Source: Selaginella tamariscina
Taxonomy: Eukaryota; Streptophyta; Lycopodiopsida; Selaginellales; Selaginellaceae
NCBI GenBank assembly: GCA_003024785.1
Contig: PUQB01000449.1
Location: forward strand, 62,001 to 126,000
DNA: 64,000 nt
Reading direction: 5' to 3'
Positions within the stretch are counted from its first letter, which is position 1, and the number at the start of each line of letters is the position of its first letter. Below are positions 1,826 through 64,000 of this stretch, piece after piece. Under the pieces are notes generated by a model, which worked only from the letters and a program-made list of their open reading frames with translations, ran no database searches and was not told the origin of the DNA. The translations under genes and the position numbers were made by a program.

Positions 1826-1922
1826 ATATATGTGTATTAGTATATATAAGTTGCATATCTTATTTTATTTACTTTTATCATCTTATCATAATATTTCGAG
1901 TAAAAGCTAGGAATCTATGTAA

Positions 1923-2009
1923 AACTGTCCAGAGCTCACATTTGTGGTGGTTCTAAAACGAAATGTTATCTTTCTTTTGCACTAGCACAAATGTGAGCTT
2001 TGGACAGTT
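1923..2009. repeat. Short hairpin or MITE-like inverted repeat upstream of the cargo gene
   Basis: The 24-bp arms at 1923-1946 (AACTGTCCAGAGCTCACATT...) and 1986-2009 are near-perfect reverse complements around a 39-bp loop. The flanks allow a possible TAA duplication, which would fit a Tourist/PIF-Harbinger-like MITE. The hairpin was not found at the matching place in copy B (about 13960-14030), so it is either a later insertion or was lost there. It could also act as a regulatory hairpin in the promoter region. Confidence 0.6.
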
Positions 2010-3385: not shown

Positions 3386-3445
3386 GTAAGCAAATTGTCT
3401 GGGCGGGATTTATCTCGCCGGTATATTAATCTGTTTTTTTCTCAG
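3386..3445 (+). other. Intron carrying one palindrome unit
   Basis: A GTAAGC donor and TTTTTTTCTCAG acceptor match the equivalent 16327-16394 intron of copy B (GTAAGT...ATCTTCAG). Inside it, 3402-3419 reads GGCGGGATTTATCTCGCC, two mismatches from the 18-bp array palindrome. Copy B has a more eroded version at 16343-16360. Splice signals conserved in both copies support a real transcribed gene in the ancestral element. Confidence 0.75.
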
Positions 3446-4280
3446 AGAGTTGAAGAAAATTGTAGCAGTTGATTTTGCCCAGGTGGGCGGGAAGGAAACA
3501 TCCTTTCTGATGATGTTGATTTCTTGCCCCAAAGATAGGATCTTTGCCAAATGGTTGGGGATTATGGAATCCTTTTCAAAGGAACACTGAAGAAGAAGCA
3601 GACAAGTGAAGGGGAGCCTCAGAAAAGTCTGCAAAAGAACCCAGTAAGACGCCAAAGGCTAAGTTGTTCAATCTACAAGGATGTAGACAACGATTTCAAG
3701 CTCACATGGTTGAAGCCTTTAAATGGAACAACGATGGAAGAGATGGAAGTCTTGGCTGATTTGGTGATCGATGACAAACTACAAATTAATAACAGCAGCC
3801 CAACCTCTCCTTTTCATCTCAAGGCAATGGAGTTGAAGACGGTCAGGCATTTCAAGGAGTGGTTGGGAATACACTGCCACAAACTGGGTTGGACCTCGAC
3901 CTCAACATATGAAGAGGTCAGCAAATATTTGCATGTGAGAGACGATGATATGCTTGTCGAATGGGTGAACCAATCGGAAGATCTAGGCAAGAATCTATTG
4001 CACGCCAACGCCAAAAAGGAGAACATTGGGATGACGCCTTCTCTTATGGCAGTCCTTCAGCAACGGAGAATCGAATGAACCTTATAAAGGAGGATGCTAC
4101 GAATCACGACAAGCCCTACAGATGTTTGTTGTTAGATTCAGAGACTTTTATGGGGTAAATCACTGCTTGTAGGAAACCGTTTCATTGTTCGTGATGGATC
4201 GGGTGTCAAAAAATCTTTCGACAGATAGGGCACTAGAGATCTGGTGGAGAAACTTAGCCGTGCAAGCATATACATAGAAG

Positions 4281-4333
4281 GTATTTATTATTGAATTTCT
4301 GCTTGCGCTCTTCACTGATACCTACTTTTTCAG
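4281..4333 (+). other. Short intron bounded by a direct repeat
   Basis: GTATTTATTATTG...CTACTTTTTCAG, 53 bp, matches 17233-17281 in copy B. AGGTATTTATT occurs at both the 5' junction (4279-4289) and the 3' junction (4332-4342). Confidence 0.65.
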
Positions 4334-5220
4334 GTATTTATTTCTTGATTCTTGCTCATGTCACCGATACTTTTGCCTTCGCCTTCGCCAAGAAGAATAG
4401 ACATCGTTGGACAGGATTTTATATGAACGATGCTAATCCCAAGTGCATTGATACCGTTGTTCACTTGGTTGTTAGGAATGCGCCAAACGCTTCCAAATGA
4501 CTGGCCAGGCATCTGTTTGCACTCCAACGGCCCTGAACCTCCATCCGATACACCGATAGGTATGAGTGACGTATTCGGCAATGTACGTTATCCAAACATT
4601 ACAAGTCAAGCGGCACGGAGCATCGTCAACTTGATTAGGGGTCCTCACAGTGATGCGTGGGTTTTTGACTACTGCACTAGGGGGTCCGTCTTGAAGGAGT
4701 GTTACCTTCGGCATACATGTGTGTTTGCCGTTGAAAAGGATAAGACCATGGTTGAGGACCTGAACAAGTGGATAGATTGGGTCTCAACTGAGTACCCCAA
4801 CGATCCATAAAGGCGTATTTGAGAAAGTTCGCACACTCCAGTACCATGGAAACATCAATAGAAGATGCAGAAGATCTTGAACCATCTCACAAGCGGCTTA
4901 GACCTTCTTCGCCTCACTCAGAAGGTAATAGCGAAGAAGAATTGTTAATGAATTGTTAGAGTGACGATAGTTGTAAATGAGTGTAACATAAGGCATTTTT
5001 GTATATTTCGTTTTATATTTGTACAAAAATAAATTCTCAAGGATTAATGAAGCTTTTAGTTCAAACATGGGTCACACATTAAAAGGTAAATAATATACCT
5101 TGATAATTTTAAGGTCAGCTAATTATCATTTTGCAGATGATAAGATTGAGAACATGGATTTTCAGCATTGGCATGAGGTAAGAGAGGGTTTGGCGACAAT
5201 TTCTTGTGCCACATGTCAGA

Positions 5221-6403
5221 ATGACAGAGTTCATGCAGGAAATGGATAATAATGCAGCTCAAAACATCGTTACCATGGGGGCCACTTCATCATCATTTTA
5301 TTTAGCTTCAGTTCAAAATCAATTTCTTCAGCGCATGCAATATCTGATCTTGTAAGGATGATGTACCAATTAAATGATGAAGGGATAGGCAACGAGATAG
5401 TGGCAACGGATAAATGTGAAAGGGAGCAAACAAGTGATTTGCAAAGTATTCAAGAGGCAACGCTATCTCATGTTACTCATGGCCATATTGTGTTGTTGGA
5501 TGTCAATGGTGGTTCTGCTTCATCGACAAAGGCCCGAGGATAGGAAAAAACAAATCAAACAAGGAGATTTCATTCCTTGTCATGGTAAATTTGATATGAT
5601 ATTATTTTTCGTCCAGGGTTGGATCGTCTCTTTCAAAAGCTTAAGGAGATGGGTGCGCTTGTGGGGATTTGGTCATGCATGCAGATTCATAACTTAACAC
5701 CGCTGTTGAATTTGCTTAAGAAACATTGTAATGTTGTAGAAGAGGTGATTCGTAAAGATTGGATTTTTGACCAACGAATGTGTTATAAACCTTTCGAATT
5801 TCACAATATAGAAAAGGAAAGCAAGCCATACTTCTTCAAGAATGAAAGAATAATTGGGACTCATGGGGAGATCAGTCGCTTAAGGATAATGGAGAATGCA
5901 CATATCTTAGTAGTAGACGACTCTCCTCAGAAGGCTATGCTCAACCAAAACATTGTTTGTATTCATCCAATCACTTTCGATCCATATTCTGATACCGATA
6001 TCATGGATGAGCTAGTGAACTACTTGGATACGTGCCTCAGAAAGAAGAATCTCGAAATTTTTTGTGAGCAGTATCCACCGTATCATACATTTCCTGAAGC
6101 TTTTCTTTCTCGTGATTTTGAATTTTATAAAATGAAGGATAGCAACGGGCGCTTTATAATATTATTCTTAAGGAACGTCATTCTTTAGATGAGCCTTTAT
6201 GCAGACCTGGTCTTATTACATCTTATGTATTAACAAGGATGGCAACTCCCAATTGCATTCGTGAGAGTGTTAGGTGGTGGCAACAACATCAAGATATTGA
6301 CCAAAATGATTTGATTAATCCGGAGAGTGATGATTTAGACAAAATGAGGAGATTTCTCTGTATGGTGAGGAAGAAAGTATTTATAAATAAATTAACATGT
6401 TGA
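5221..6403 (+). pseudogene. FCP1/NIF-type HAD phosphatase-like cargo gene, copy A
   Basis: The likely start is ATG 5221 (MTEFMQEMDNNAAQ), conserved at 18133 in copy B. The stop is TGA 6401-6403 after a tail (CIRESVRWWQQHQDID...) also shared with copy B. The FCP1 homology region begins with HIVLLDVNG at about 5485-5510. The frame then shifts by one base to continue as VLLHRQRPEDRKK, followed by the phosphatase core at about 5610-6060: LDRLFQKLKEMGALVGIWS, then KPYFFKNERIIGTHGE, then ILVVDDSPQKAMLNQN, which is the typical VDDS-P-KA-N late motif. In FCP1-like phosphatases the nucleophile motif is DxDx(T/V). Here it is D-V-N-G-V, with Asn in the second position, so catalysis is uncertain. It lies about 260 bp downstream of the ParB-like gene and before the element's right terminal repeat. 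Confidence 0.72.
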
Positions 6404-6648
6404 TAAGGAAATGATTTCATTTGTAATTATGTTTGATAGTATTTCTTCATTATTGTAAACTATTTTTAGAATAATATGAATATTCTAAGATAGTTTAGGA
6501 ATATTCCTTACTAATTAAGGTTATTGAATGATTAATTAATTAATTAATTAATATTTAAGGCTTAATTACATATTAATTAAATGATTAATTAATAATTAAA
6601 ACTTAAGTATTAATTAGTAATTTATTTTATATTCCCATTTTCACGTAT
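6404..6648 (+). other. AT-rich 3' region before the terminal repeat, copy A
   Basis: TTAATTAA-rich DNA between the FCP1-like stop and the terminal inverted repeat. It is matched closely by 19308-19553 in copy B, which supports a common element structure. Confidence 0.6.
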
Positions 6649-6674
6649 CATGCCCACTTTAGTTACAACGTGCA
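6649..6674. repeat. Right terminal inverted repeat of composite transposon, copy A
   Basis: Read inward on the minus strand it begins TGCACGTTGTAACTAAAG, followed by TGGGCATG. The same 26-bp end is at 19554-19579 (copy B) and, with small changes, at both ends of the foldback element 25611-27671. It also matches the left end of the transposase-bearing half at 58748. The next base, 6675, begins unrelated LTR sequence. Confidence 0.75.
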
Positions 6675-6781
6675 TTGGGGGAGAGTTTTCTAAAAGGTAA
6701 GTACTACCTTCACCTAAAGTTTCTCGAGGTACCTAGTGACAGCCGGTCGGACTACCCTAAACACCTAAGTGCACTAAGCTG
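6675..6781 (-). mobile_element. Partial LTR, family X, left piece
   Basis: It matches the minus-strand form of the 950-bp LTR family seen whole at 14758-15707 (GGGGGAGAGTTTTCTA...CCTTCACCTA). It continues at 10823-10968 after an interruption by Ty3/gypsy DNA. GTCGGACTACCC...CACCTAAGTGCACTAAGC occurs on both sides of the interruption. Confidence 0.65.
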
Positions 6782-10968: not shown

Positions 10969-12329
10969 ATCAAGAACTCTTTAAGATCTTGGCTAACCGA
11001 GAATTTTAAGTAAAAAAGATGTGTAAACTGGATAAATCCCTAACGGATTATAATGCAATCCTAATGAATTCCTCAACCCCTAAATTTTAATTTTAAGAGA
11101 GAATGTAAGAGAGTGAATTTTTATAAGTATTTTTAAATTTGTTTATAATACTTGTAAATAGCACTAAGGGTGCTGTGCTTTTTTATAAACAATAGCACTC
11201 AATTTAATGTCGCTCCTGATTAAGGAAAGAAGATCTAAAGAGAGAAAATTATAAAAATGAAGAAACTCTTGCGAGATAAAGAACCGAATCTGAATTTGAG
11301 TGAAAAATTAAAAGCATTTTCAAAGTTACATGTCAGACTAACAATACTTATGTCGGAATTTTAAATTTTTGAAAATAAAATAAAATTTTAAATGAGTTAA
11401 CATAAATAACCAACTCTCTGGCATATATACTTTTTGTTTCTAATGATTTTTATAAATTACATTTAATATATTTAACATTATCAAGTGATTCAAGCTGTTT
11501 CATTTTATAAAATTTTAGTAATTATTCTACATTCTTAATATTCCAGTATATTTATTAAGTATATATTATAAATATATATACTTATACGATAGATAAAATG
11601 ATATATTATTATGTATCATTTAAAATATATTCATAGTGTGTATATTAATATTGTTTTCTTAATTATTCCAGTAATTAATCTACATTTCTTTACATTAATG
11701 GGATATTCTTTATTATTTTCTTTTTATTCCAAGAATATTCCAATATTAAACCTAATTATCTTAATTAAATTAGTAATAATATTTTTAATTATTTGAGTAA
11801 TTATTGCACATGTGCTTATATTAATGGGATTTTCTCAATTATTTTCTTATTATTTCAAGGATATTCCAATGTTAAACCTTATTATCAATATTAAATTAAT
11901 ATATATTATTAAAACTATATATGACTATATATTAAATAAAAATATATTATTATGTATAATTTAAAATATGTTCATAGTGTGTATATTAATATTATTTTCA
12001 CTTTAATTCAATGTTTCTTTTGCACACATATATAAACACAATAAAAAATTTACATATACACGTGCACACGCATTATAAGCACTTACAAAGACACATGCAC
12101 ACATATACACAAGTCGATGGGTGAATCACAATATAAATAAATGTTCATGGGTCTAGCATCTAGCTTTATATTTACGGTTTAGATTTTAAATTCCAAACCA
12201 AACATTTATAGTTACACACACTTACATTGAGGCTTACATATACATACACGAAATATTTATAAACTTTTACATGCACACAACACACTCACACATATGCATT
12301 GAAAGCACCTATAGAGACACATATAGGAT

Positions 12330-12347
12330 TTAGGGTTTAAACCCTAA
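12330..12347. repeat. Head-to-head telomere-like palindrome
   Basis: TTAGGGTTTAAACCCTAA is a perfect palindrome of plant-type telomere units (TTTAGGG). A shorter version, GGGTTTAAACCC, lies at 12789-12800. Both sit in the AT-rich block of the composite transposon. Confidence 0.6.
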
Positions 12348-13004
12348 ACCAAGCATTTATCATTACACACACTCTACACTAGTACTTACATATACACACA
12401 CAAAACATCCATATTATATTTATGTTTAGTGTTTAGAGTAAATTTATATTAAATAATTAGAAAAATGTGCATGGATTTAATTATACTAATATATATATTA
12501 TGTGCTATGATTGCTTTCAAATGTGTTTTAATATCATTATGTTATTTAAGTTAAAATTGAGTAAAATTCAAATATATACATACACTTTTAAAGTATGAGC
12601 AAATTATAATTTGCATTTTTAAAAATAAAGTTTTTAAAATAATTGACAAATCAATATAATGATTTGTGATTTTATGTTTATCTACTTGATTATCAACAAT
12701 TCTTTATACGTGTTTTCTTGTGTATTTTTATACAAATAATAGACTTTTAATACAGATATTTAAAATTTAATAATAAAATACTTACATTGGGTTTAAACCC
12801 TAAACCAAATTGGGGAGATATGTTGCTTCTTTATCGAAAACATCATGTTAAACGCATGTATGTTCCATATGTACTTAGTCTGTGTGTATGTAACAAATTG
12901 ATTTCACACATGTAATATGTATGTATGTCTACGTGTATACATGTGTGACACTGTGTATATACTAATGTATGCAATGTGTGCAAAATTAATTTTTTAACAC
13001 TCTC

Positions 13005-13022
13005 TCTCTCTCTCTCTCTCTC
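13005..13022. repeat. TC microsatellite
   Basis: A pure TC run within the AT-rich block of copy B. Confidence 0.85.
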
Positions 13023-13542
13023 ATACACACCATGGATGATCCATAATATGACACTGACATGATATGTACTATGTACATATGTTTATATGTATATTATATG
13101 TGTGTATGTATGTATTACTGTACGTGAAAATTTAACATGTTCATAGACACATATGTTAAACACCTACATGTTTTATATTTTTGGGGTGTGATACACCCAC
13201 ACACCCAGATTATGATAATATATTTGTTTAGAGTTAATATATATTCTTTTTAGGGTTTATGTATATTCTTCGGGTTTCAGAGGAGAAAGACACGGCGGTG
13301 GTGGAATGTGCAATAGATCAATAGATCTCTTTCTCAAACAAGGTGTGGCGGTGTAATAGTGAAGGTGCATTCACACAGGTGAAATCTCTCTCACATGCAC
13401 ACTCCTGTGTATACATATACATATATTTTTGTGTGTGATAAATAATTTAATTATTTATTTGTATTTACATATACATTTATATGTATGTGTATTTATATAA
13501 TAAAATTTATTTATTTATCTCTCGCACATACACACACACTCT

Positions 13543-13573
<31 letters not shown>

Positions 13574-14757
13574 TTGTATAATTTTATTTATTTAGCTCAC
13601 ACATGCACACTCACAATATACATATACACATATATATACATATATACATATATATATGTGTGTGTATCTGTATAATTTTATTTATTTAGCTATTAATTTT
13701 CTGCACTAATTTCATCCACTTCTCTATGAGACAAAGAAGAGTGTATGTGAATTTACCAATGTATTAATATATATAAGCACATGTTTGTCTGTATATTATA
13801 TTTCTCGCCATTTAAATAGCATGAACATTTCAGAGAAAAATATGTATAGACTCTGTAAAGTTTTAATAGTGTATTTGTATATTCGGGTTTATACGAGTGT
13901 GTGTGCGTTTTTATATAAATTGTATTCATAATGTATTATTGTGTAGAAAGAAGGATTGATATAAGAAAGAGATTCAGTCACTAGTATGGAGTCGTTATTA
14001 AATTCTGGGTAAGAATTAATACAAAACATGTTATACTCAGATATGTGTTTAAAGAAGTAATCATTTTTGTATTCAGATGTGGAATTGAGGTGACATTGAA
14101 GACGAGGAGGAGATGAGATGGGCAGGGGGATTCTGGAATCAACCTAGCCATATTTCAAAATAAACGGGAAGCACATTGGATCAACCATGGTTGTTGTCAA
14201 GCTAACCTCTGTCACATTGCGTGGACAAGCAAAATAATGGAAACTAGATTCATTAGTCAAGCACCTGACGGCATGTTGCAAATCGAGATTGGATGATGCT
14301 CAAAATAAATATCTTGTTCCATCCAATGTCACGTTTTTGGATTCGGAGGACGCGAGATACAACAAGAACCTCGGGTGGTTTTGTCGGCTTGTGGATTATA
14401 ACATTCACGTGTTCACTAATGATGTCAACTGTGCAGTTCTTCTTCAGCTAAACAAAAACTCATCTATGGAGGGGATCCAATTAGATGTTTTCGAGGATCT
14501 CAATGTTCATTGAGTAGGTGTATTCATAGCAGATATTGCTTCACAATACAGATCATCCACAAGTGAAGCAATCGTCCCTCTTCTTATTAAAGAAGAACAT
14601 AGCGACATCATTAGGGAGATGACAGGGTGGCTCGATCCTAGGTTCTTTACAGATCACATTCAATTTGCTTAGGAATCTTCGTGTGCCAAAAACGTTAGAA
14701 CAGCTGCAGTCATGGCTCACGTGATTCAGACTGCAAAAGAAAATCATTTGTCGTTTT

Positions 14758-15707
14758 TGTCATAGTTTTTACTATGACTCAACCCTTTACTTTGGGGTTT
14801 GACTGTTGTTACCTACCGAGTTGTGTGACGAACCCTAGATGTAGTAGGAAACAGGCCCACTTAGTGCACTTGGGTATCTGGTGATGGTCGGCCGGGTGTC
14901 ATTAGGTATTTGCAGGAAACTCTAGGTGAAGCTAGAACTTACCTTCTAGAAACTCTCCCCCGGTTTGACGTAGGTTTTTCGTTAAATATAGCTTGTCAAA
15001 AGGGTTAGGGACACCCCTAGGGTTGCCCTAACCCCACGCCCTAATACCCCCCCCTAGGGGTTAGGTTTAGGGTTAGGTTAGGACAACCATTTTCTCTAAG
15101 GGCTGGCATTTTTGTGCCAGCCCACTTACTCATTTAGGTAAACAGGGGGGGGGGGTCCGTCACATAAATAAGGTAGAGTGTATGTAGTGAGGCTTCCTGG
15201 GTTCAAAAGAAGCTCGTTAACCTCCTACCGGTGCAAGCTAAGCTTGTGTCGTCAAGGTGCAACCCTCTGTTGTGCCGCCCAAACTTCCACACGACAGGGG
15301 TACAACCCACCCTAGGGTTAGACTATCCTTATCGTTGGCAGGATCTTGCCTTTGAGACAAGGGCACGTCACTTCCAAGGAGTTAGCCAGATTCCTTGGTC
15401 CGAAAACCTGCTCGCAAGCTCAAAGGTATTGCCCGAGTTCACGTTCCGCAGAACTAGTGGTTGAGGCCTTGCTCCGGCCGCCTCAACCACACCAAGCTAG
15501 GAACAACACCTATAACTCGGCCAGTTCGTGCATCCTGATTCACAAGGTGAGTCTCGTTCGTGGACTTGGTCAGTTAGGGTTTAAGTTCCTAAGGGTTGGG
15601 TTCCTAATACGGGTTACTTTACCAGATTCCGTGGGGTTTCCAGAGAGGGGATTCCAGGGTTGGCACCTGGCAAGCCACCTTTGTGGCACCAGGTAAAAAC
15701 TCTGACA
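14758..15707 (+). mobile_element. Solo LTR, family X (950 bp), in cargo gene copy B
   Basis: It starts TGTCATAGTTTTTACTATG and ends GTAAAAACTCTGACA. It is flanked by the 5-bp duplication GTTTT (14753-14757 and 15708-15712). The undisturbed sequence in copy A (about 2776-2795) shows the empty site. It contains CCCTAACCC-like tracts and a G run near 15145. No internal genes remain. Confidence 0.88.
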
Positions 15708-16326
15708 GTTTTCTTAGCTGCACTTGTGGCATCCCATGCTGCAATAAGCCACAAGGAAATAATGTTGGATGATAGGATTTACGAGTGTAGGGTTAAGTAT
15801 TGTAGCATTAACCCCAACTTCAATTACATACCACTCAACCAAGAACGTATAGCTGAGCTGATGGAGAAGATGAAGGACGACAGTTTTTACATTATTTCAC
15901 ATAATGCTGTTTTGTGCCCATATTATGAAAGAAAGAAAGGCATTGAGATAGTATGGGTGACAACACCAAAAACAAATCATGATGATCCAGATAGAGAATA
16001 AAAAATCAATCAGGTATTACATTATTAACGGCCAACACATGATAACGGCAGCCCAATAACTTCTCAATGAACACAAATAAAGGAACAATGGCAACAAAAC
16101 TTTCTGAGCATACCCGTGAGAAGCTAACAAAAGATCAGCATTTTTAGCTAAGCTAAATCTCGCAACCTAGTAATATCATAAGTTATCGGCGGAATGGGAC
16201 GCTGCTGACACCAACCACTACAATAGCAAAATATGGGAGAAGTTCAAACACATACGATCCATGTGGGAAAATCTTGGGCAACCACAAAGAGCTACTGCAG
16301 GGAGAGAAAAAAGTGTAAAATATTGG

Positions 16327-16394
16327 GTAAGTAAATTGTCTTTGCGAGATTTATTTCGCTCTATATATTAATTTGTCTTTTTTTTAATCTTCAG
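16327..16394 (+). other. Intron of cargo gene copy B with eroded palindrome
   Basis: GTAAGT donor and TCTTCAG acceptor, equivalent to 3386-3445 in copy A. The palindrome relic at 16343-16360 reads TGCGAGATTTATTTCGCT. Confidence 0.7.
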
Positions 16395-17232
16395 AAAGCT
16401 GAAGAAATTGCAACAGTTGATTTTGCCCATGTGGGCAGGAAGGAAACATCCTTTTCGATGATGTTGATTTCTTGCTCCAAGGACAAGGTCTTTGCCAAAT
16501 GGGTGGGGATTATAAATCGTTTACAAAATGAACATTGAAGAAGAAGCAGACAAGTGAAGGGAGCCCTTGAAAAAGTCTACAAAGAAACCCAGTAAGACGC
16601 CGAAGGCTAAGTCTAATCAATCTGCGAAGGATGTAAATAACAACTTCAAGCTCGCATGGTTGAAGCCTTTGAATGGAATAATGGTGGAGGAGACGGATGT
16701 GTTAGCTGATTTGGTGGCTGATGATAAACTACAAATTAATAACAGCAGCCCCACCTCTCCTTTTCATCTCAAGGCAATGGAGCTAAAGACGATCATGCAC
16801 TTCAAGGAGTGGTTGGGAATACACTGCATAAACTGGGTTAGACCTTGGCTTCAACATACAAAGAAGTCAGCAAATATCTGCATGTGACAGATGATGATAT
16901 GCTTGTGCAATGGATGAATCAATCAGAAGATCTAGGCAAGAATCTATTGCATGCCAACTCAAGAAAGGAGAACATCACAATGACGCTTCTCTTATGGCAG
17001 TCCTTCAGCAGTGGAGAACCGAGTTAAACCTTATAAAGGAGGATGCTACGAATCATAACAAAGTCCTACAGATGTTTGTTGTCAGATTCAAAGACTTTAT
17101 GGGTAACATCACTGCTTGCAAGAAATCGTTTCAATATTTGTGATGGATCGGCAGGTGTCAAAAAATCCTTCCTTAGAAAAGGCATTAAAGAATTTGGTGG
17201 AGAACTTAGCTATGCAAGCATGTACAAAGAAG

Positions 17233-17281
17233 GTATTTATTATTGAATTTTTGCACACTTAACTAATACCTACATTTTCAG
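17233..17281 (+). other. Intron of cargo gene copy B bounded by a direct repeat
   Basis: GTATTTATTATTG...CATTTTCAG, the counterpart of 4281-4333, with the same GGTATTTATT duplication at its two junctions. Confidence 0.6.
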
Positions 17282-18132
17282 GTATTTATTTCTTGATTCT
17301 GGCTCATGTCCACCGACACTTTTGCCTTCATCTTCGTCAAGAAGAATAAACATTGTTGGACTGGATTTTATATGAACGATGCTAATCCCAAGTATATTCA
17401 TATGGTTGTTCACTTGGTTGTTAGGAATGCACCAAACAATTTTAAACTTCTAATGACTAGCCAAGCATCTGTTTGCACTCCAACGGGCCTAAACCTCCAT
17501 CTGATACACTGATAGCTAAGAGGGATGTATTCGGCAATGTACGTTATCCAAACATTACAAGCTAGGTTGCACGGAGCATCGTCAACTTGATCATGGGTTT
17601 CACAGTAATGCATGAGTTTTTACTACTGCACTAGAAGATCCGTCTTGAAGGAGTGTTACCTTCGGATACATGTGTGTTTGCCGTTGAAAAGAATAAAACC
17701 ATGGTTGAGGACTTGAACAAGTGGATAAAGACTGACTACCCCAACAAACTCATACATGAGTATTTGGGAAAATTCCCTCCCGAGAAGTGCGATAGCTATG
17801 AGGAGGAGCCTGGTTCAATGTCAGAGTCTGAGAATGATCTTGAACCAGATATTAGACCAAAAAGTTATCTTAAGAAGTACAAAACATTCACTTACTCTAT
17901 TAACCATGAAACATTAAAGAAGAAACAGAATATGTTAAACGATCTTCTAAGCGGTTGAAACCTTCTTTGCCTCACTCCAAAAGGTAACAGTTAAAGAAGA
18001 ATTTTAATGAATTGTTAAACTGACAAATAGTTATAAATGAGTGTAACATAAAGCATTTTTGTATATTTCGTTTATATTTGTACGGAAAATAAGAGAGGGG
18101 TTTGGCAAAAATTTCTTGTGCCACATATCAGA

Positions 18133-19307
18133 ATGACAGAGTTCATGCAGGAAATGAATAATAATGCAGCTCAAAAACATTCTTACTATGGGGACCACAT
18201 CAATTTTTGCATCACCATTTTTATTGCCTTTAGTTCCTAAATCACTTTCTTCAATGCTTGCAATATATGAATCTTGTAAGGATAATGTACAAGTAAATGA
18301 TAAAGGGATCGACAACAATATAGCGTCAAAAGATAAATGTGAAAGGGACCAAACAAGTGAGTTACAAAGCATTCAAGAGGCAACTTGCCCCTTGCTACTC
18401 ATGGTCATATTGTGTTGTTGAATGACAATGGTGTTTTGCTTCATCGACAAAGGTGTGAGGATAGAGAAAAAGAAATCAAACAAGGAGATTTCATTCGTTG
18501 TCATGATAAATTTCGTTATGATGTTTTTTATCCAGGGTTGGACCATCTCTTTTAAAAGGTTAAGGAGATGCGTGGAATTATGGGGATTTGGTCATACATG
18601 CTGATTTACAACTTGACACCACTGTTGAATTTACTTAACAAACATTAGTGTTCTAGAAGAGATGATTCGTAAAGATTAAATTTTTTACCAGCGAATATGT
18701 TATAAATCTCTCGAATTTTACAATATAGAAAGAAAAGCAAGTCATACTTCTTCAAGAATGAAAGATTAATTAGGCTTCATTGAGAGATCAATCAATTAAG
18801 GACAATGAAGAATGCACATATCTTAGTAGTAAATGACTCTCCTCAAAAGGCTATGCTTAACCAAAACATTACTTGTATCCATCCAATCACTTTCGACCCA
18901 TATTCTGATATCAATACCATGGATGAGCTAGTGAACTACTTAGATATGTGCTTCAAAAAGAAGAATCTTGAAAACTTAATATTCACCATATTAAACATAC
19001 CTTGACACTTTTTTTTTCTTGTGATTTTAAATTTTATAAATTGAAGGAGAACAACCGGGCTCTACAATATTATTCTTAAGGAATGTCATGTTTTAAATAA
19101 ACTTTATGCACTCCTGTTCTTATCACAGTTTATGTATTAACAAGGATGGCAACTCCTAATTGCATTCGTGAGAGTTTTAGGTGGTGGCAACAACATAAAG
19201 ATATTGACCAAAATGATTCAATTAATCCGGAAAGTGATGACTTAGATAAAATGAAGAGATTTCTCTGTATGGTTAAGGAGAAAGTATTTACAAATAGATT
19301 AACATGA
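18133..19307 (+). pseudogene. FCP1/NIF-type HAD phosphatase-like cargo gene, copy B
   Basis: It starts at the conserved ATG (MTEFMQEMNNNAAQ) and stops at TGA 19305-19307. The N-terminal stretch keeps TSIFASPFLLPLVPKSLSSML, then DKCERDQTSELQSIQEAT. The nucleophile region reads LLNDNGVLLHRQR, so the first Asp of the DxD motif is also lost in this copy. Later parts of the fold are recognisable: GWTISFKRLRR and ILVVNDSPQKAMLNQN, with Asn where copy A has Asp (VVDDSP). There are several frame changes and stops. This copy is more decayed than copy A, and the catalytic residues are not preserved. Confidence 0.7.
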
Positions 19308-19553
19308 AAAGGATTTTATTTGTAATTATGTTTGATAATATTTTTTAATTATTATAAAATATTTTTACAATGAAGAATAATACGAATATTCTAAGATATT
19401 TTAATAATATTCTTTACTAAGTAAAATTAATAAAGGATTAACTTGTTAATTAATTAATATTTAAGTCTTAATTAAATATTTGATAATTAATTAATTAATA
19501 ATTAAAGCTTAAGTATTAATTAATAATTTATTTTATATTCCCCTTTCATGTAT

Positions 19554-19579
19554 CATGCCCATTTTAGTTACAACGTGCA
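19554..19579. repeat. Right terminal inverted repeat of composite transposon, copy B
   Basis: It reads, from the outside inward, TGCACGTTGTAACTAAAA then TGGGCATG, as at 6649-6674. The sequence after 19579 is unrelated to that after 6674, as expected for two insertions. Confidence 0.75.
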
Positions 19580-23100: not shown

Positions 23101-25610
23101 CACAAGCTCAATAAGCAAAAAAGGTGAGACATCCAATCAACCTAGAGAACGAAAACGATGGGGAGTCCAACGAAGAGGAACTAGTGATATAACTCTTTGA
23201 GTTGGGACATTGGCTGAGAAAGTGCATTGGAGTGGAGACTGTTGCAGAGCAAATAAGACTCGCTCAAGACCAAGAATCAGGGGAAACACCATGGATACAG
23301 GAAAGCCTCGTAGGCAAAATATGAGAAACCCAGGTATTAGTAACCCATGTGAGCTACTCCGCCTATCCCCCGGGTTATATGAAGTCCGGACCAACCATAG
23401 CTCTTCCAAAGGTCACAATGACAATAGTAGATTTTGTGGATGATATGCTAGCCATACCAAGTTAAGTTGTGGGCCGCATTGTCCGCAACATTATCGTGGA
23501 CAGAGGTTTGGGCGTGAACATCATGTTGGTGGAGCTCCACAAAGAGCTAGGAATGCCACCCTCGGAACCTTCACCCTTCCTCATACGTATGGCAAACTAA
23601 GCCAAGGTGACACCCAAGGGCATTATGAGGAAGGTAGAAATGAAGATCTGGAGCACCAAATTTATGATAAATGTCATCATTCTTGACATGCATGCAACAG
23701 GGGGTTCGACATGCTCCTGGGATGATCGCAACTTAAGGACGCAAAGGTGCAACATGACTAGGAGCACCATTAAGTAAGATTCCCCACGAAAAAGGGATTG
23801 ATATCCATGATAGTGGAGCAAGTCTGGGCACTACCCTTGGAGTCTTGACCACATGAATACCATGTGCCAAACAAGAGTGAGGGATTTAACAACGATGAAG
23901 AAGTGACCATCCTCGCTTGCCTACTGGACTTGTTTATTGTAGAGGATGTAGACCTTTGCCATGAAGTGCAAGAGACCGTTGTAGCATACCACGTGATAAG
24001 AAGGAAGCCCCTAAAAGTGCAAGTCCCAAAGTGGCCCATTATGTGGAAGGAACTGAAGAACATCGCCTGCATGCTCAAGAGGAGTACCACGACAAGCTTA
24101 TGTACGGGTGGAACATGACCCCGAGGCAACAATAAAACAAGTAAATGTGAGCATGGATGAGGAATCTCAACTGGTACACATCAATGCTCACATAGAACTG
24201 AAGCTGAGAGAACGAATTGTTGACTACCTCTGCAGCCACAAAGAAGTGTTTGCTTACCACGACTTAAGGAGAGTACTGCCAAAATTGTGCCAACATAGGA
24301 TCAAGATGAAGCTCGATACAAGCCCTAGCCACTAACAATAGTACCGCATCAACCTGAGCCTCTCCCGAAAATGCATGATGTTCCAATTGATCAGGGAAAA
24401 GCTATACACGCAGGGGAGATGACATCCTCTGGAGACGTCCCTTGTCATGGGTAATCTACAAGATCCTCAAAACAGCCTAATGCTAGACACTTCGGAGGGG
24501 AGAAGACATCTAGGAAACATGACTAAGGTGGCCTATGATTTTCAAGACGCCACTAGGCAACAAGGAGCTACAGTGACAGACAACAAATTGGCCATCAACA
24601 ACTGGCCAAGTCATGGAGTACCACCCAACAACAAAAATCACAGCGGTCAAGAAGTGGGGCCTAGACTCCATAAGCTTGAGTAACCCGAAGGGCCACAGGA
24701 CACACTCCAGGTACAGTGCAATGGCAAGGGACTACACCACGAAGTGGGTCAAAGTGAAGGGAGTCACTTCATCAACAAAACGGCCTACAAGTTAGGAAGT
24801 ATGATCATCATCAAGCACCTCATGTCAACAAATGATTACTCACAAAGGAACGGATAGGTCAAGTCCACAAACAAGACACTGATGACCATCTAGAGGAAGC
24901 TTTGCCGCAATGAACCTTGGCAATGGAAATAGATACTACCATCTGTCTTATAGATACTACATCTGTCTTAAGGTGCATCGAATGACCTTCAAGACTACAA
25001 GTGGAGCCACGTTTTTTCATTTGGCTTATGACTTGAGGGCCATCATGCCATGGGAGGTTACCATCCCTAGCTCACGTACAAGCCAGGGGAACAAGTTCAC
25101 GGAAGAACTAGGGGTTGCCCAAAGGAGGTTAGAGCAATTGGAATAGTTTGACGAAGAGCAATTCGTGGCGCAATGAACCAGGGACAACCATCAACAACAA
25201 GCCAAAAGAAAAGAAACTTCAGAGGTAAAATGAGGATGGTATGTGAAGGTGCAAGTACTCTGGAGGGGCAAATCTAGGCTAGGATGGAAGAGACCATATG
25301 AGGTCCCCAAAGTCTTTAACAACATCATGATGTTGCTAGGAGCTAGTGGACAACCACTACGGTAGACAGCCAACGAGAACCACCATAAGCTGTATATCTA
25401 CTCGGTTGAAGCTCCAACCAAGGCATCCCAACTTGTCCCTAGCCACACGTGTGGCCAGGTCACATGGTCGCATGGTCCACGAGGGTGGACCTCATGCATA
25501 AGGCACATACTATGAAGGTAATGATGGTTAGACTGTGCCATCATTACGTGTAAGGATAAATGCACTAGTCCACCTCATATGGCATCATTAGGATTGCCAC
25601 GTTGGCAACA

Positions 25611-27671
25611 TGCACATTATAATTAATAAAATGGGAATGACTATAGTCCCATTTTTTAATAATTAGCAATTTTAGTTATTTAATTAGTGTTTTCTAATAT
25701 TAAAGAAATATTCTTTAGAATAATATAGGTTTTTAAAAAAGAATATTTTTAGAATATATGTTTGAAGATAGAATATTCTTTAGAACATTATATTTTTGTA
25801 ATTAACCTTTTAATAAATTATAGCATTCATGGACCAAAAATTAATAATTAAGTTATATAATATATTATATTTAAAATTGTATGAGCTTAATATAAAAATT
25901 AGTAAAGAGCATGATACATTATAAATATTTATGTTGTTATTAAAATATTAATATTTAAATATAACATTAATTAAAATTTTGTACTAGTAATAATATAATA
26001 TATATATACAAAAATCCTATACAGTCAATCTTCCATATCTTTTTATAAATTTATATAATTAAATAAACAATTTGATACTATTATTAAAGAGTTTATTATA
26101 ATTATGAATATTAAATATACTATATTTTTATAATTTTGTAATTGCTTTAAGCTTTAGAAAACATACATTCTCTTGCGGTTTTTAATCGTGATTTTTTCAA
26201 TGCTTCTTGACATCCACCCATATCGAATGAATTTAACATTTATAAAACATGCTGGGTCTTTTTGATTGGGAAACCATGTTTTCCATTATATTTTTTGTTC
26301 TCATTCTCATGTCGCCTTTTTTATGGTTTGAACCATGTAACCTTTACCATATATTTTTTGTGATAACTTCAGGTGTGGTCAATAATTTGACTCATCCAAA
26401 TAGGCTGATTATATGACACATCTGGAGTAATGAGGACAATCATTAATTTTTTAAAGATACTTGTAGCAATCAAAGTATGATTTAGGTTTTTGGTTCCTTT
26501 ATTCAACAAAGTGTGGGGTTTGCACTTCCAATCACTATTGACTTATATGTCGTCTATGCTCATTGATGTCATTTCAATCTCCTCTCGCCACTTTGTTAGG
26601 CCAAAAAGGGTGTTATAATTATGTACTTGTGACAGTAGGCCCTTCTAACTCTCAAACAACAATCTCTTAATAGTCAACCACATGCTTATATGGTTCTGAG
26701 TAACCAATTGCCTTATAAAAGTTCTTTGACATCGATTTTTGAAACCATGCCACATATTTTTTGATGCCATCAATAATAAGCTTTTGTTCCTTGAGCTGGG
26801 CACTCAATGGAATAAGGTTTGGTTGTCCTTCTGGAAGAAGTGGCTTTCCATCCTCCACTTTTGAAAAGCATTAAGTCCTCTTTCGGTAACCATTCCTACT
26901 TTGATGGCCGTAACTTGTACTGCATAATAGGTATACCATCTCTTATGGAGAAAAAGAATTGTAGTGGCATGGATGGTCCTCATTACTCCAGATGTGTTAT
27001 ATACTCAACCTATTTGGATGAGTCAAATTATTGACACACTTGAAGTAATCACAAAAAATAATATGGTTAAGGTTGCATACAAAAAGGCGACATAAGAAGG
27101 AGAGCAAAAGATATAATGGATGCCTAGAGAAAACATGGTCTCCCAATCAAAAAGACCCAGCATGTTTTATAAATGTTAAATCCATTCAATATAGGTGGAA
27201 TGTTAAGAAGCGTTAATAAAGTCACGATTAACAAAACTACAAGAGAATGTATGTTTTGTATATTTATATATATTATTAATAGTACAAATTTTTAATTAAT
27301 GTTATATTTAAATATTAATATTTTAATAACAACATCAATGTTTATATAATGTACCTCTTATGCTCTTCCTTAAGTTTTATATTAAGCCCATACAATCTTT
27401 AAATATAATATATTATATAACTTAATACCTTTTACTTTTATAATGTTATTAATTTTTGGTCCATAAATGCTATAATTTATTAAAGGGTCAATTACAAAAA
27501 TATAATGTTCTAAATAATATTTTCTCTTTAAACATACATTCTGAAGAATATTCTTTCAATAATTATTCTAAAGAATATTCCTTTAATATTAAAAACTGCT
27601 AATAAAATAATTAAATTATTAATTATTAAGAAATAGGACTATAGACATGCCCATTTTAGTTACAATGTGCA
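25611..27671 (-). mobile_element. Foldback derivative of the DUF7869 transposon
   Basis: Both ends carry the family terminal repeat: left TGCACATTATAATTAATAAA, right (inward) TGCACATTGTAACTAAAA. The arms extend far inward: 25611-26445 is repeated, inverted, at about 26965-27671. The left and central part (26160-26960, minus strand) is a degraded copy of exon 2 of the transposase gene at 59347-60364 (EDGKPLLPEGQPNLIPLSAQ, IIDGIKKYVAWFQKSM). The right arm is an inverted second copy of the end of that gene. The element is non-autonomous, 2061 bp, and nested in gypsy-2. Confidence 0.8.
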
Positions 27672-27759
27672 TACACCCTTAAAAGAGATGATAGGAGTAA
27701 GTGTAGGATGCATGTCTCTCTCTCTCTATAGCAAGTTTGCTCACCTCTCAGTAGAACAT

Positions 27760-58449: not shown

Positions 58450-58747
58450 AAATGATATTCATATTTGGAATTTAGTCATGTACCTTCTGTATACTCATCA
58501 GTGTTGTCAATGAGAACTGCTCTAAGGACTTTAAAGAGGCTTGAAAGGTGATTCCTCATGGATGTGATGGTGCCGATAGTTAGGTTCTCTTACTTGAAAT
58601 GATGCCATGAAAGTGAACTTCTCTTTTATACATGATAACTAGATTTTATATATCCAAGTGTTGCCATAAGTGGTTGTGTCTCTTAAAGATGATGATTGAT
58701 TAGTTTTATTGAAGATGCTATGATGCAAGTGGCCATTAAACAATACA
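58450..58747. other. Unique spacer, nothing identified
   Basis: About 300 bp between the solo LTR and the left end of the composite transposon. No gene seen. Confidence 0.5.
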
Positions 58748-59346
58748 TACAAGTTATAACTAAAATGGCATGGCTATAGTCCCATTTCCTAATAATTAGC
58801 AATTTTAGCTATTTAATTAGCATTTTCTAATATTAAAGGAATATTCTTTAGAATATATGTTTGAAAAGAGAATATTCATTAGAATATTCTATTTTGTATT
58901 CTACCCTTTAATAAATTATAGCATTCATTGAACAAAATTAATAACATTATAAAAGTAGAATGTATTAAATTATATAATATTTGCCTAATATAACAATTAA
59001 GGAAGAGCATAAGAGGTACATTATATAATATGATGTTGTTATTAAATATTAATATTTAAATATAACATTATTAATTAAAAATTTGTAGTAGTAATAATAT
59101 ATATAAAATCCTATAATAATATAGTCAATCTTCCATATCATTTTTTAAATTTATATAGTTAAGTATACAATTGGTACTATTATTAAGAGTTTATAATATA
59201 TTATGAATATTAAATATATGATATTTTATAATTGTAATGCTTTAAGCTTCAGAAATATACATTCCTTTGTAGTTTTGTTAATCGTGACTTATCAACGCTT
59301 CTTGACATCCACCCATATCGAATGGATTTAACATTTATAAAACATG

Positions 59347-62300
59347 CTAGGTCTTTTTGATTGGGAGACCATGTTTTCTTAGGCATCCATTATATTTCGC
59401 TCTCCTTCTCGTGTCGCCTTTTTTGTGGTTTGAACCATGCAACCTTAACAGTACTATTTTTTGTGTTACTTCAGGTTGTGTCGTAATTTGACCCATCCAA
59501 ATAGGCTGATTATATGACGCATCTGGAGTAATGAGAACCATCATTAGTTTTTGAAGATCCTTGCAGCAATCAAAGTATGCTTTAGGTTTTTGGTTCCTTT
59601 GTCCAACAAAGTGTGGGGTTTGCACTTCCACATCACTACTGGCTTCTATGTCGTCTATGCTCAGTGATGTCATTTCAATCTCCTCTCGCCACCTTGTTTT
59701 AGGCCAGAAAGGGTGTTGCAATTCTGTACTTGTGACAGTAGGCCCTTCCAACTCTCGAACAACAGTCTCCCAATAGTTGACCACATGCTTATATAGTTCT
59801 GAGTAACCAGTTGCCTTATCAGAATTCTTTGGCATCGATTTTTGAACCCATGCCACATATTTTTTGATGCCATCAATAATAACCTCTTGTTCCTTGAGCT
59901 GGGCACTCAATGGAATAGGGTCTGGTTGTCCTTCTGGGAGAAGTGGCTTTCCATCCTCTCCACTTTTGAAGAGCATTAAGCCCTCTTTCGGTAACCACTC
60001 CTGCTCTGATGGCCGTAACTTGTACTGCATAATAGGTATACCATCTCGTATGGAGAAAAAGAATTGTAGCGGCACAAGGTGACCAACTAAAGAATCACTC
60101 CCTTCTTTTATATACTCCTTGAGAAATTTTTTGAAGTCTGGCACCTCAGTCACAAGCAAAGCACAACTTTTTTTGGAGATGCAATTTTCAAAAAGATTCA
60201 TCATATGCGGTAAGGTAAGTGCACTTGTCCTTTTTGTAGAGTTGGAGACCTTGCTGAAGAACGCATCAATATCTTCATGAGTGTGACCAACCATAAGGAA
60301 ACTGAGCGTGATTGTTTCAAACACACCTTTGGCAACAAGCATTGACAAGTATGCTAGCACATATCTAGAAAATAAAAGTAAGTATGAGCTTGAGAAACCC
60401 TTAAGTAAAATGATTTACCTATTTTTGTTCTCGCCTGCACAATTATCCATCTGTAAAAGCAAATGACGAGGAAGCTTATTTGATGTTGAGGACACATGTA
60501 CACTATTTGAGCTAGATCCCTCCACTGAACCTGAACTCTCAACAGGGCCATCTGTTTTTTGTGCAGGTTGCTGACAATGCCTCTCATATTCCCAAGTAGC
60601 CTCAAGTGCAGATGTGTTCATGAGAGCATTATGTAAAGGTTGAAGGTGTTGTTTCTTCACTTTGAGATCACTGATAGGACTTGTCTGTGAGTGGGCTTCA
60701 AGGTTTCTGAAACACATGGCTAACGACCCAATAGTGAAATTGGAGTCGCTAGACCAATGTGGAAGTGAAAAGTGTCCATATGACTCACAACCGTGTCCAT
60801 GTGTTAGCACACCTGTCAATGAAATCGGAAGTTTCATGACATTTCCAAGGCACTTTGGTGTTGCAAAGAGCTTTGGAATGCTGGTCTTTGAATGATCCAT
60901 CTTGTCATGGATCAAGCACAGGTACTCTGATGGGCGTGACACAGAAAGCATGCGGTGTGCATAGTACTGAGACCGGCAAGTTTGTTGTGCAATCATGTGG
61001 GCCTCCATCTTCCTTTGAATGGTAGTGATCTCCACCAAGGTTTTTGCACAAGCCTCTGCAGCCTTCAATGATGTACAAGTGTCACACTTAGAAAAGCTAG
61101 AGTGTTTTGCAATCTCCACATCCTTAAAATGAGTATTCCATATGTTGTTGAAGGTACCAGTGCAGATTGCTTGGAGCCCCATCAAACTGAGGCACTTGTT
61201 CACATGTTCACACAGTTTCAATTGAGTGTAGATTGAAGGTAAAACCTTGAGATTTTCCCTGACCCCTGCATTTGTGGTTCGGCATTTGTGAGGCATCCTG
61301 TCTGCATTTGCTTCCACAAAAGCCTTGAGTATCTCTATGGCTGCCATGATGTGAGAGCGGGTTTTGACCAAGCGAGTGTTCCCATGAACTGAGGTTCGCG
61401 CTCCATCTAGCCACTCATCCCTCCGACGGTAGAACGTGGTCTTTGGGATCCCGTATATACTGTACCAAGCTTTGAAGCAGATGGCCACCTTATTAAATAC
61501 CATGGATGTACTCTGATAACCTGTGTCCGAGGCCATTCCATCAATACACCCAGTTAGTGCAGCATATACAAACTCATGCCTTTGCTTTTGGGTGAGCATA
61601 CGAAAGACATGTCTACATTGGGTAATTTCATTCCGGTCTGCCATCTGACAACACTTCTTCTTGCAACAGTCAATCGTGGAAATGCTCGTAACACTTTCGG
61701 AAGATGTAGGATCCATCTTTACCCTCTTGCTGAAACTTGCAGGGGAAGATCTACAACCCATGAATCGCCTTTTTCTTACAATAGGACCAATGCAAGGAAC
61801 CTCTTCAAATATGAGTTGTTCTTCCGGGTTGTTATTATTGAAATCCAACCCAGAATATGTTGAACCATCTTGCCGTCTTAATTCAGATGTTCGCCACCTC
61901 ACGAGGGATCCAGGATACAATGTGCCATTAGGTGAAACCTCTGTCACAACTACACCCACGAAGTCGGACCCTAGTTTCTCTTCTGACACTGCTTCCATTG
62001 GATTTATAGCTGTGATGATGCCTCTTCCGACTTCAATCTCACGAAGAAAGAGAATCACCTCATCCATCACAGCAGGCAAGCCATCATCTGGTAAACTCGT
62101 GCTACTATTTGTTTGTGACTCTGCATATTCTGTGTCAGCCTTGACTTCATCCAAATTCCACAATACAGGAGAACCCTCCTCAAATTCCATTCCCAGAACC
62201 TCAACATGCTTGTAAATGGTGTTCACCCATACGTACACACAAGATCCTTGGGCAATATTGTGACATGATGCATTATTATCTCGAACTTCCACAGTTCCAG

Positions 62301-62367
62301 TGCCAACTATCTCGTTGTTCCGAAGAAGACATACTTTATCTCCAGTATTAAACATATTGTCCTGCAC
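59347..62367 (-). CDS. DUF7869/DDE-type transposase-like protein, two exons
   Basis: Exon 1 is 62367-60419 and exon 2 is 60364-59347. The intron 60365-60418 has a GTAAAT donor and TTTTCTAG acceptor. Splicing joins ...GENKN-R-YVLAYLS in frame, giving about 988 residues with no break. A splice acceptor (TTTATGTGCAG) just upstream of GACAATATG suggests a further 5' exon; otherwise the first ATG is the Met of NMFNTGDK. The N-terminus (TGDKVCLLRNNEIVGTG) is followed by a Cys-rich patch (CCKKKCCQ, then CDTC further on). The DDE-like acidic residues sit in HDKMDHSKTSIP (near residue 491), LLLQMDNCAGENKN (near 641) and GHTHEDIDAFFS (near 680-683). These motifs are, as I recall, those of the DUF7869 family; DNA cutting and joining in the nucleus is inferred. 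Lys/Arg-rich C-terminus (KKGDTRRRAKYNGCLRKH). The intact frame suggests recent activity or selection. Confidence 0.75.
60365..60418 (-). other. Intron of the transposase-like gene
   Basis: 54 bp, GTAAATCATT...TTTTATTTTCTAG on the minus strand. Removing it joins the two open frames across a conserved GENKN-R-YVLAYL stretch. Confidence 0.85.
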
Positions 62368-62509
62368 ATAAATAATTGTATTATTTATGATATCTGTTTA
62401 TGCAATATTTCTAAGAAATCTGAATTACGGTTACTTAATAATATGCATATGCAATAATACATAATTATGTTTAGAGATAATATCTCATGTTTGATTAATA
62501 CAACTGATG
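62368..62509. other. Spacer between transposase gene and palindrome array
   Basis: AT-rich, probably upstream intron or 5' UTR of the transposase gene, which is divergent from the cargo genes on the far side of the array. Confidence 0.5.
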
Positions 62510-63060
62510 GGCGGGATTAATCCCGCCCACGAATCCCTCCGACGAGGAACGGTCGGCGGGATTAATCCCGCCGCCGACTCAACCCCTTCGGAGAGAGTCG
62601 GCGGGATTAATCCCGCCGGACTCCCCCGAGGAAGAGCGGCGGGATTAATCCCGCCGGCTCTTCCTTGTCGGAGGGAGTCCAAGGCGGGATTAATCCCGCC
62701 CACAATTCTTACGACGGGGAATGGGTGGCGGGATTAAACCCGCACATAACTCTCTCCAAAACTATGATTTCAAAGAGATCTCGGGATAAATCCTGTCCCC
62801 AAATCCTTAAAACAGGGAGTGGTGGCGAGATTAATCCCGCCACCCCTTCCCTGCCTCCTAAAATGGTTGGCGGGATTAATCCCGCCGACAACTCTTTCTA
62901 ATAAATTCTGGTAACTCTTCATCAGTTGAGAAGGTTATCGCGGGATTAATCCCGCCACTCTTTTTCAGTGGCGGAGAAGCATTGCCCGAAGATGGTGGCG
63001 GGATTAATCCCGCCACCTCTTCAAAGAGGCGAAAAAGAAATGGCCGGATTAATCCCGCCG
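62510..63060. repeat. Palindrome array 2 (GGCGGGATTAATCCCGCC)
   Basis: Exact 18-bp copies at 62510-62527, 62555-62572, 62600-62617, 62638-62655, 62683-62700, 62869-62886 and 62997-63014. Near copies lie around 62728, 62780, 62824, 62939 and 63042. The first five start 45, 45, 38 and 45 bp apart. Spacers are related but alternate in orientation: the spacer after unit 3 (CTCCCCCGAGGAAGAGC) is close to the reverse complement of the one after unit 4 (GCTCTTCCTTGTCGGAGGGAG). This array is less eroded than array 1. Confidence 0.92.
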
Positions 63061-63061
63061 C

Positions 63062-64000
63062 CCCGGTTAACCTAGAATATTAAGTTAAAAGGATATTTAA
63101 ACGGGATAAATCCCTAACGGAATATATTATAATCCTAATGCATTCTAAACCCCTAAATTGTAATTTTAAGAGAGAATGTAAGAGAGTGAATCTTATAAGT
63201 ATTTTTAAATTTGTTTATAATACTTACTTGTAAACAGCACTGAAGGCGCCGTGCTTTCCTATAAAGAATAGCACCCAATTTAATCTCGCTCCTGAGATGA
63301 TCACTATGAAGAAAAAAGAAGATCTAAAGAGTGAAAAATACAGAAATGAAGAAACCCTTGCCGGAGAAAGAACCAGATCTGAATTTGAGTGGGAAATTAA
63401 ATGCATTTTCAAATTTACATGTCAGACCGACAATACATATGTCAGAAATTCAAATTTTTTAAAAAGAACAGAAAATAAAATTTAAGATGAGTTGACACAA
63501 ATATCCGACACTCTGACATATATACTCTCCAGTTCCAATGAGTATTTTAAAATTGCATTTAATGTTATTCAAGTGATTCAAGCTGTTTAATATTACGAAA
63601 TTTTAGACTATATTCTACATTCTTAGTATTCAAGTATATATATTATATATATATATATATATATAAATATATACTTATACAATAAATAAATTGATATATT
63701 ATTATGTATCATTTAAAATATATTCATAGTCTGTTTATTATTATTATTTTCTTAATTACTCGAGTATTTAGTTTTCATTTCCTAGTATCAATGGGATATT
63801 CTTTAATATTTTATTAATATTTGAAGAATATTCTAATATTAAACCTGATTATCATAATTAAATTAGTCTTGTTCTTAATTATTGCAGTAATTATTCTACA
63901 TTTGTATATATTAATGGGATTTTCTCAATTAATTTGTTATTATTTCAAGAATATTCATGTGTTAAACCTTATTATCAATATTAAATTAATACACACTATG
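63062..64000. mobile_element. AT-rich block of the composite transposon, collinear with 10985-11890
   Basis: Shares GGGATAAATCCCTAACGGA, AAGAGAGAATGTAAGAGAGTGA, GAATTTGAGTG and the terminal TTAAACCTTATTATCAATAT with copy B in the same order. An eroded palindrome unit lies at about 63095-63116. TA microsatellite at about 63640-63666. No gene. Confidence 0.75.

Follow-up and report, generated by a model that had tools for sequence, protein, structure and literature searches.

The 64-kb stretch of Selaginella tamariscina DNA analyzed here (hereafter the window; C781:62001-126000) contains parts of a DNA transposon of the terminal-inverted-repeat kind. Across the whole genome (300.7 Mb, 1,391 contigs), which was our search space, this element forms a real, abundant and recently active family of near-identical copies of about 15 kb. 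By analogy with known elements, it is probably a Sola-type giant transposon carrying a gene of the ParB-methyltransferase kind in addition to its transposase gene. Both genes are preceded by arrays of the same 18-bp palindrome.

A complete, joined element of about 15 kb

The original prediction, made from the window alone, assigned four of its pieces (copies A, B and E and a foldback; Table 1) to a single element. Local comparison confirmed the named pieces and their matches: copy E aligned with the foldback (58745-60074 with 25608-26969, 84% over 1,391 columns) and with copy B (63065-63999 with 10991-11909, 82%), and copy A aligned with copy B in two blocks (2777-4830 with 15708-17775, 83%; 5179-6674 with 18090-19579, 84%). 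The shared blocks are far beyond chance. We then sampled ten copies from 15 places fully identical to a left-end probe and added copy A (n = 11 copies). Eight of these were collinear from left end to right end (E, A, C1293, C948, C627, C837, C102 and C1). Complete copies measured 14.7-15.6 kb, not the roughly 12 kb first proposed, and their arrays differed in length. Among the other three, C802 was masked at its right end, C511 was covered for 9.9 kb only, and in C596 the match ended at ~13.07 kb, 0.86 kb short of the contig end. A further complete copy was found on C1077 (14,716 bp). Loci joining the transposase to the cargo genes between terminal repeats therefore occur in the genome; had there been none, the original prediction would have treated the two halves as separate repeats. 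Its term "composite transposon" does not apply, as the element is a single unit with extra genes.

From left to right, the element consists of a terminal repeat, a DUF7869 transposase gene (minus strand), array I, an AT-rich block, array II, a multi-exon second gene (plus strand), an FCP1/NIF-like gene and the opposite terminal repeat. The transposase gene and the second gene are thus divergent, each with its array in front, and the AT-rich block between the arrays spans ~3.4-3.9 kb. Within the window, the proposed succession of terminal repeat, transposase, array and AT-rich block was recovered from 58747 to the window end. Copy A does hold the array, cargo and terminal repeat ascribed to it; it forms the right end of a complete copy, 14.7 kb long, whose start lies outside the window (G000:C781:53944). 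Copy B shares the AT-rich block and cargo as claimed and proved to be an older, left-truncated relative, interrupted at ~14763-15707. The foldback carries the expected terminal repeats and transposase remnants; it has two left ends, and its flanks lack a 4-bp duplicate (CAAC/ACAC).

Terminal repeats and target duplications

The terminal inverted repeats are 26-27 bp long. In most copies other than E the left repeat reads ATGCAAGTTGTAACTAAAATGG(G)CATG, and the ends of most copies follow ATGCA[A/C]GTTGTAACTAAA[A/G]TGG(G)CATG. Both flanks were readable in 11 copies (A, E, C1293, C948, C627, C837, C1, C1077, two elements on C1239, and C1242); C102 was excluded from the count because its left flank is masked. 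The target duplications predicted outside matching ends were present at a length of 4 bp and were exact in 7 of these 11 copies (TGGG, CCTA, ATAT, GAAG, ATAA, ATAA and TCTT). Three more had a 4-bp duplicate with one mismatch (E, C1 and the second C1239 element), and in C1293 the 4-bp duplicate was absent and a 5-bp TATTT would fit. An empty site was available on C1239, where joining the flanks of the first element restored the older inverted element around it. We rejected TGCA as a target rather than an end, since the duplicates lie outside ATGCA...TGCAT.

Several loci held more than one member of the family. At C1239:48000-81500, two elements lie at a distance of 15.67 kb. An older inverted element surrounds the first; the duplicate of the second is the mismatched one, and the sequence to its right is not a continuation of the older element. 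Tandem copies were rejected for this locus because the first element sits inside the older one. A similar pair, 15.65 kb apart, occurs on C533. On C948, 1.2 kb upstream of the complete element, an inverted second left end stands head to head with the element's own left end, like the foldback of the window. Downstream of copy E (L010, ~6.1-9.9 kb), a further family member is represented by its left half (85-97% identity).

Genes of the element

The transposase matched DUF7869 (PF25273) in Pfam at 159.7 bits, against a gathering cut-off of 26 (E 8.2e-47), in agreement with the predicted DUF7869-type enzyme. Its 97 homologs include proteins of Riccia, Physcomitrium, bivalves, corals and a sea cucumber, and 96 of them carry PF25273. 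In a tree of 26 proteins, the transposase grouped with two at ~52% identity. Residues D192/D195, D353 and D395 (P0001 numbering) were invariant in 28 relatives, a pattern in the alignment that suggests a DDD catalytic set. A search of viral contigs, of a kind that finds close relatives only, gave no match to the transposase, and a literature search returned no paper naming DUF7869.

The second gene, whose introns are GT-AG, has four exons: a predicted first one of 23 bp, exons 2 and 3 of 1,318 and 844 bp, and a last one. It is open in C102, and its exon 3 is open in 8 of the 11 copies. The third gene bore out the predicted FCP1-like cargo, matching PF03031 in Pfam at 37.1 bits against a gathering score of 21.8 (E 3.1e-9). 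The canonical FCP1/NIF catalytic motif is DxDx(T/V); it is not kept here, where the sequence reads DVNGV and the second D has become N. Recent capture of a host FCP1 gene was unsupported, with 0 homologs at E 1e-3 among 514 candidates.

To gauge selection, we counted distinct variants over the 11 copies and expressed nonsynonymous to synonymous changes relative to neutral (N/S), with transitions weighted fourfold. Gaps in this sample concern the FCP1-like part of C596, a portion of that part in C802 and a portion of exon 4 in copy A, and the variants are not independent along a tree. For the two transposase exons, N/S was 0.40 and 0.74 (0.49 when pooled, p 0.008); in the second gene, exons 2, 3 and 4 had values of 0.68, 0.19 and 0.37 (0.48 when pooled, p 0.003). 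Transposase exon 2 and second-gene exons 2 and 4 were not significant when each was taken alone. Differences between copy B and C102, sorted by codon position, pointed in the same direction for exons 2 and 4, and weakly for the rest. The FCP1-like gene had an N/S of 1.21 (p 0.75), with no selection detectable. The transposase and the second gene therefore show signs of purifying selection and the FCP1-like gene shows none; the latter is probably not needed by the element.

Palindrome arrays in front of both genes

Array sites were defined by likeness to GGCGGGATTAATCCCGCC, tolerating at most 3 mismatches over the inner 16 bases. Over the 11 copies, array I held 8-22 sites and array II 22-29, and both were internal (~3.75-4.8 kb and 7.8-10.3 kb from the left). 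Array I had its first site 152-155 bp upstream of the transposase start codon in 10 of 11 copies, and array II had its last site starting 357-394 bp upstream of the second-gene start codon in 9 of 11; the ATG string was not found in the remaining one and two copies, respectively. One degenerate site lay in an intron of the second gene. Site spacing peaked at 44-46 bp. Palindrome columns were 79-100% conserved versus 29-71% for their neighbours (104 and 211 distinct windows); picking sites by the inner 16 bases favours those columns, and the two outermost columns, which fall outside that criterion, were conserved at 82-88%. Since homogenisation of units would keep the spacers too, the pattern is better explained by selection on the palindrome.

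The exact 18-mer GGCGGGATTAATCCCGCC occurs 27,128 times in the genome (reversed control, 0; ~0.001 expected at 40% GC). Among the 100 matches listed, all on contig C1, 99 lay in clusters, and six pairs of clusters were spaced like arrays I and II, at 3.1-3.8 kb. In the window, the exact 12-base core of the palindrome occurs 19 times, always within copies A and E. We infer that the arrays before both genes may be binding sites of the second gene's protein.

At an average of 20.6 palindromes per copy (11 copies), the genomic total corresponds to ~1,300 copy equivalents. First-look searches returned 1,851 candidates with an array II probe and 1,914 with an exon 3 probe, 40 of each being scored. 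If these candidates are copies, we estimate that the family occupies ~19-28 Mb, or 6-9% of the assembly. The exon-3 matches were 100% identical over 845 bp in 40 of the 40 scored (of 1,914 candidates), and the burst of amplification is therefore recent.

Comparison with known transposons

Judged by analogy, the closest known system is Sola1-1_Ec32 of Ectocarpus, which passages of PMC12477816 describe as a 21.5-kb element with a 1104-aa ParB-methyltransferase gene opposite the transposase, read as self-binding and self-modifying. Like it, the S. tamariscina element is giant and has an accessory gene on the strand opposite the transposase, encoding a protein of ~1,000 aa. ParB-like and DNA methyltransferase parts are reported there for Sola1-1_Ec32 and are seen by eye in our second protein, a likeness of layout and description rather than of sequence. 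The two elements differ in length (14.7-15.6 kb versus 21.5 kb) and in host, that of Sola1-1_Ec32 being a brown alga. Palindrome arrays and an FCP1-like gene are present in S. tamariscina and go unmentioned for Sola1-1_Ec32 in those passages. The same source notes ParB-methyltransferase accessory proteins in green and red algal transposons, credited to Iyer et al. 2011 and Petroll et al. 2025 (PMC12477816), and the role proposed for these is the one that we propose here. By the layout of the Ectocarpus Sola1 element, then, the ParB/methyltransferase label given to the cargo by the original prediction is credible, although no profile library confirmed it. Such a combination is not undescribed: a giant element with a ParB-methyltransferase gene has been published, as those passages show, although its host is a brown alga, not a plant. 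Novel in the S. tamariscina element are its copy number, its FCP1-like gene and, in front of each of the two genes, palindrome arrays that are candidate binding sites.

Members of the Sola superfamily, in the available passages of PMC10741241 and PMC9033089, have a DDD transposase, 4-bp target duplications and terminal inverted repeats of 11-1124 bp, some exceed 15 kb, and Sola1 is reported from Physcomitrella. Our element fits this description in duplication length, size, likely DDD set and moss occurrence, a placement by features rather than by transposase sequence. VANDAL21 of Arabidopsis carries the anti-silencing gene VANC, and its motif YAGTATTAY forms arrays in one orientation, upstream and in introns, whose number varies between copies (PMC5735166, in part). 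The S. tamariscina element likewise has an extra gene and non-coding motif arrays that vary in number between copies. It differs from VANDAL21 as described there in element type, in having an 18-bp palindrome in place of a single-orientation motif, and in that the function of its arrays is a proposal. Among transposons with two genes and repeated protein-binding motifs, En/Spm (CACTA) encodes TnpA and TnpD, has CACTA ends and 3-bp duplications, and bears its TnpA sites in subterminal positions. Two genes and repeated motifs are common to both elements; the ends here are ATGCA[A/C]GTTGTAAC rather than CACTR, the duplications are 4 bp rather than 3, and the repeats are not subterminal.

Proposed mechanism and alternatives

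We favour the reading of a Sola1-like giant transposon whose helper, of the ParB-methyltransferase kind, acts via the palindrome arrays. The transposase, through its D, D and D residues, would cut at the ATGCA...TGCAT ends and paste the element with a 4-bp stagger. The product of the second gene would be a transposon helper of the ParB-methyltransferase class and would recognise, by its DNA-binding part, the arrays in front of both genes. Such recognition would alter the chromatin or methylation of the element and keep it expressed, comparable to VANC for VANDAL by other means. Taken as a whole, we give this reading an even chance. A further step, that the helper and parS-like arrays form a complete self-recognition system whose self-marking escaped silencing and so led to more than 1,000 copies of 15 kb, making up some 5-10% of the genome, is tentative, and we hold it possible but somewhat doubtful.

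Several observations weigh against the favoured reading. No match to the second protein was found in Pfam, NCBIfam or PDB, and the methyltransferase motif [DNS]PP[YFW] is absent from its 951 aa. Copy B keeps the second gene and lacks the exact palindrome core, so the arrays may postdate the gene. A rough k-mer measure found each of the 11 copies to be broken in at least one of the six exons or gene parts, so autonomy of any single copy would be putative; the frame-breaking indels may be assembly errors or real decay. Finally, a search for a right end at a distance of 14.6-15.65 kb was possible for nine of ten more left ends (the contig of C270 is too short), and it succeeded only for C1242. 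At the expected distance, C760 had an array and AT-rich sequence, and C79 had a stretch of array II with the start of the second gene in opposite orientation. Six near-identical left ends (C1285, C461, C605, C682, C689 and C638) had nothing of the element there and are probably shorter or rearranged derivatives. With one of nine paired, left ends appear often to belong to truncated, nested or foldback derivatives. These six unpaired ends could also be taken to mean that two unrelated repeats happen to be adjacent, or that the assembly misjoined them; the eight joined copies of 11, together with C1077, have different flanks and mostly exact duplications, which refutes this idea and leaves it a negligible probability.

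The identity of the second protein is where an alternative has most room. It could be an orphan of another fold and not of the ParB-methyltransferase kind, which we consider a real possibility that falls short of an even chance. Beyond the three libraries named above, it had no match among 5.8 billion proteins (6,889 candidates at 0.55-1.75x the query length that share 5-residue words), and none in viral or prokaryote contigs in searches that find close relatives only. PHROGs returned E 0.16 only, to a family of unknown function. Searches of phages by tblastn gave E 2-10 only, under unrelated genes, and we accordingly rejected a phage origin of the gene. The second protein did not match the ParB-like profile PF02195, nor did anything in the genome up to E 1, with a control found in 11 of 14. 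Against an orphan fold stand the string GQHTITAA, which resembles ParB box II by eye, and the layout shared with Sola1-1_Ec32 as its source passages describe it. The protein might instead be a transposition accessory protein, as is TnpA of En/Spm, that binds the arrays to shape a synaptic complex and not chromatin. The same two-gene logic, the signs of selection on both genes and the tie of arrays to the element among the matches listed would all suit such a protein, but the arrays are internal and located at gene 5′ ends, not subterminal as known for TnpA, and we regard this as unlikely. It is likewise improbable, to a similar or slightly greater degree, that the arrays are simple enhancers bound by a host activator and that the second protein has another task. 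Each palindrome does contain two GGCGGGA half-sites resembling the E2F core GGCGGGAA, and the arrays do sit at gene 5′ ends; yet the half-site has AT where the E2F consensus has AA, and 1 palindrome lay outside clusters among the 100 matches listed.

Features of the window

The coordinates of the pieces described above are collected in Table 1. Just right of copy A, at 6778-8580, an inverted repeat (201- and 111-bp arms, 90-96%) flanks GGAGCAAGACAGGA-type tandem repeats. Elsewhere in the window, a tandem repeat of period 112 (3.1 copies, 99% matches) lies at 37948-38289, and minus-strand open frames at 44917-46380 resemble C2H2 zinc fingers and perhaps represent a host gene.

Table 1. Pieces of the transposon family in the 64-kb window (positions in the window).
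Feature	Position	Strand	Remarks
Copy E, left 5.25 kb of a complete 14,875-bp element (G000:C781:120747-135621)	58747..64000	+	Remainder beyond window
Left terminal inverted repeat of copy E, ATACAAGTTATAACTAAAATGGCATG	58747..58772	+	
Transposase exon 2	59347..60364	-	Spliced protein 984 aa with DUF7869 (PF25273)
Predicted 54-bp GT-AG intron within DUF7869 domain	60365..60418	-	
Transposase exon 1	60419..62355	-	ATG at 62355
Palindrome array I of copy E, 11 sites of GGCGGGATTAATCCCGCC	62510..63059	.	First site 155 bp upstream of transposase ATG
Start of AT-rich block	63060..64000	.	Common to copy B 10991-11909
Copy A, right part of a complete 14,732-bp element (G000:C781:53944-68675)	1..6675	+	
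Palindrome array II of copy A	1..1811	.	Starts just left of window
Second gene of copy A (ParB-methyltransferase-like by eye)	2086..4973	+	Frame broken, limits approximate; exons open in copy C102
FCP1/NIF-like gene of copy A	5218..6406	+	Frame broken, limits approximate
Right terminal inverted repeat of copy A	6649..6675	-	Followed by target duplicate TGGG
Copy B, older relative (~80-84%), left-truncated	10991..19579	+	Without exact palindrome core
Other repeat inserted in copy B	14763..15707	.	Limits from alignment, approximate
Foldback derivative: left end and transposase 3′ part, then inverted second left end	25610..27672	.	

Implications

A 15-kb element at such copy number and identity is unusual. 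From its sequence, DUF7869 would gain a role as a transposase with defined ends and duplications. The algal papers propose that the helper binds and modifies its own transposon, and the passages available from them give no target site; the 18-bp palindrome is a candidate for that site and makes the proposal testable. If the favoured reading is true, the arrays would be, as far as these literature passages tell, the first named target sites for the ParB-methyltransferase class of transposon helpers.

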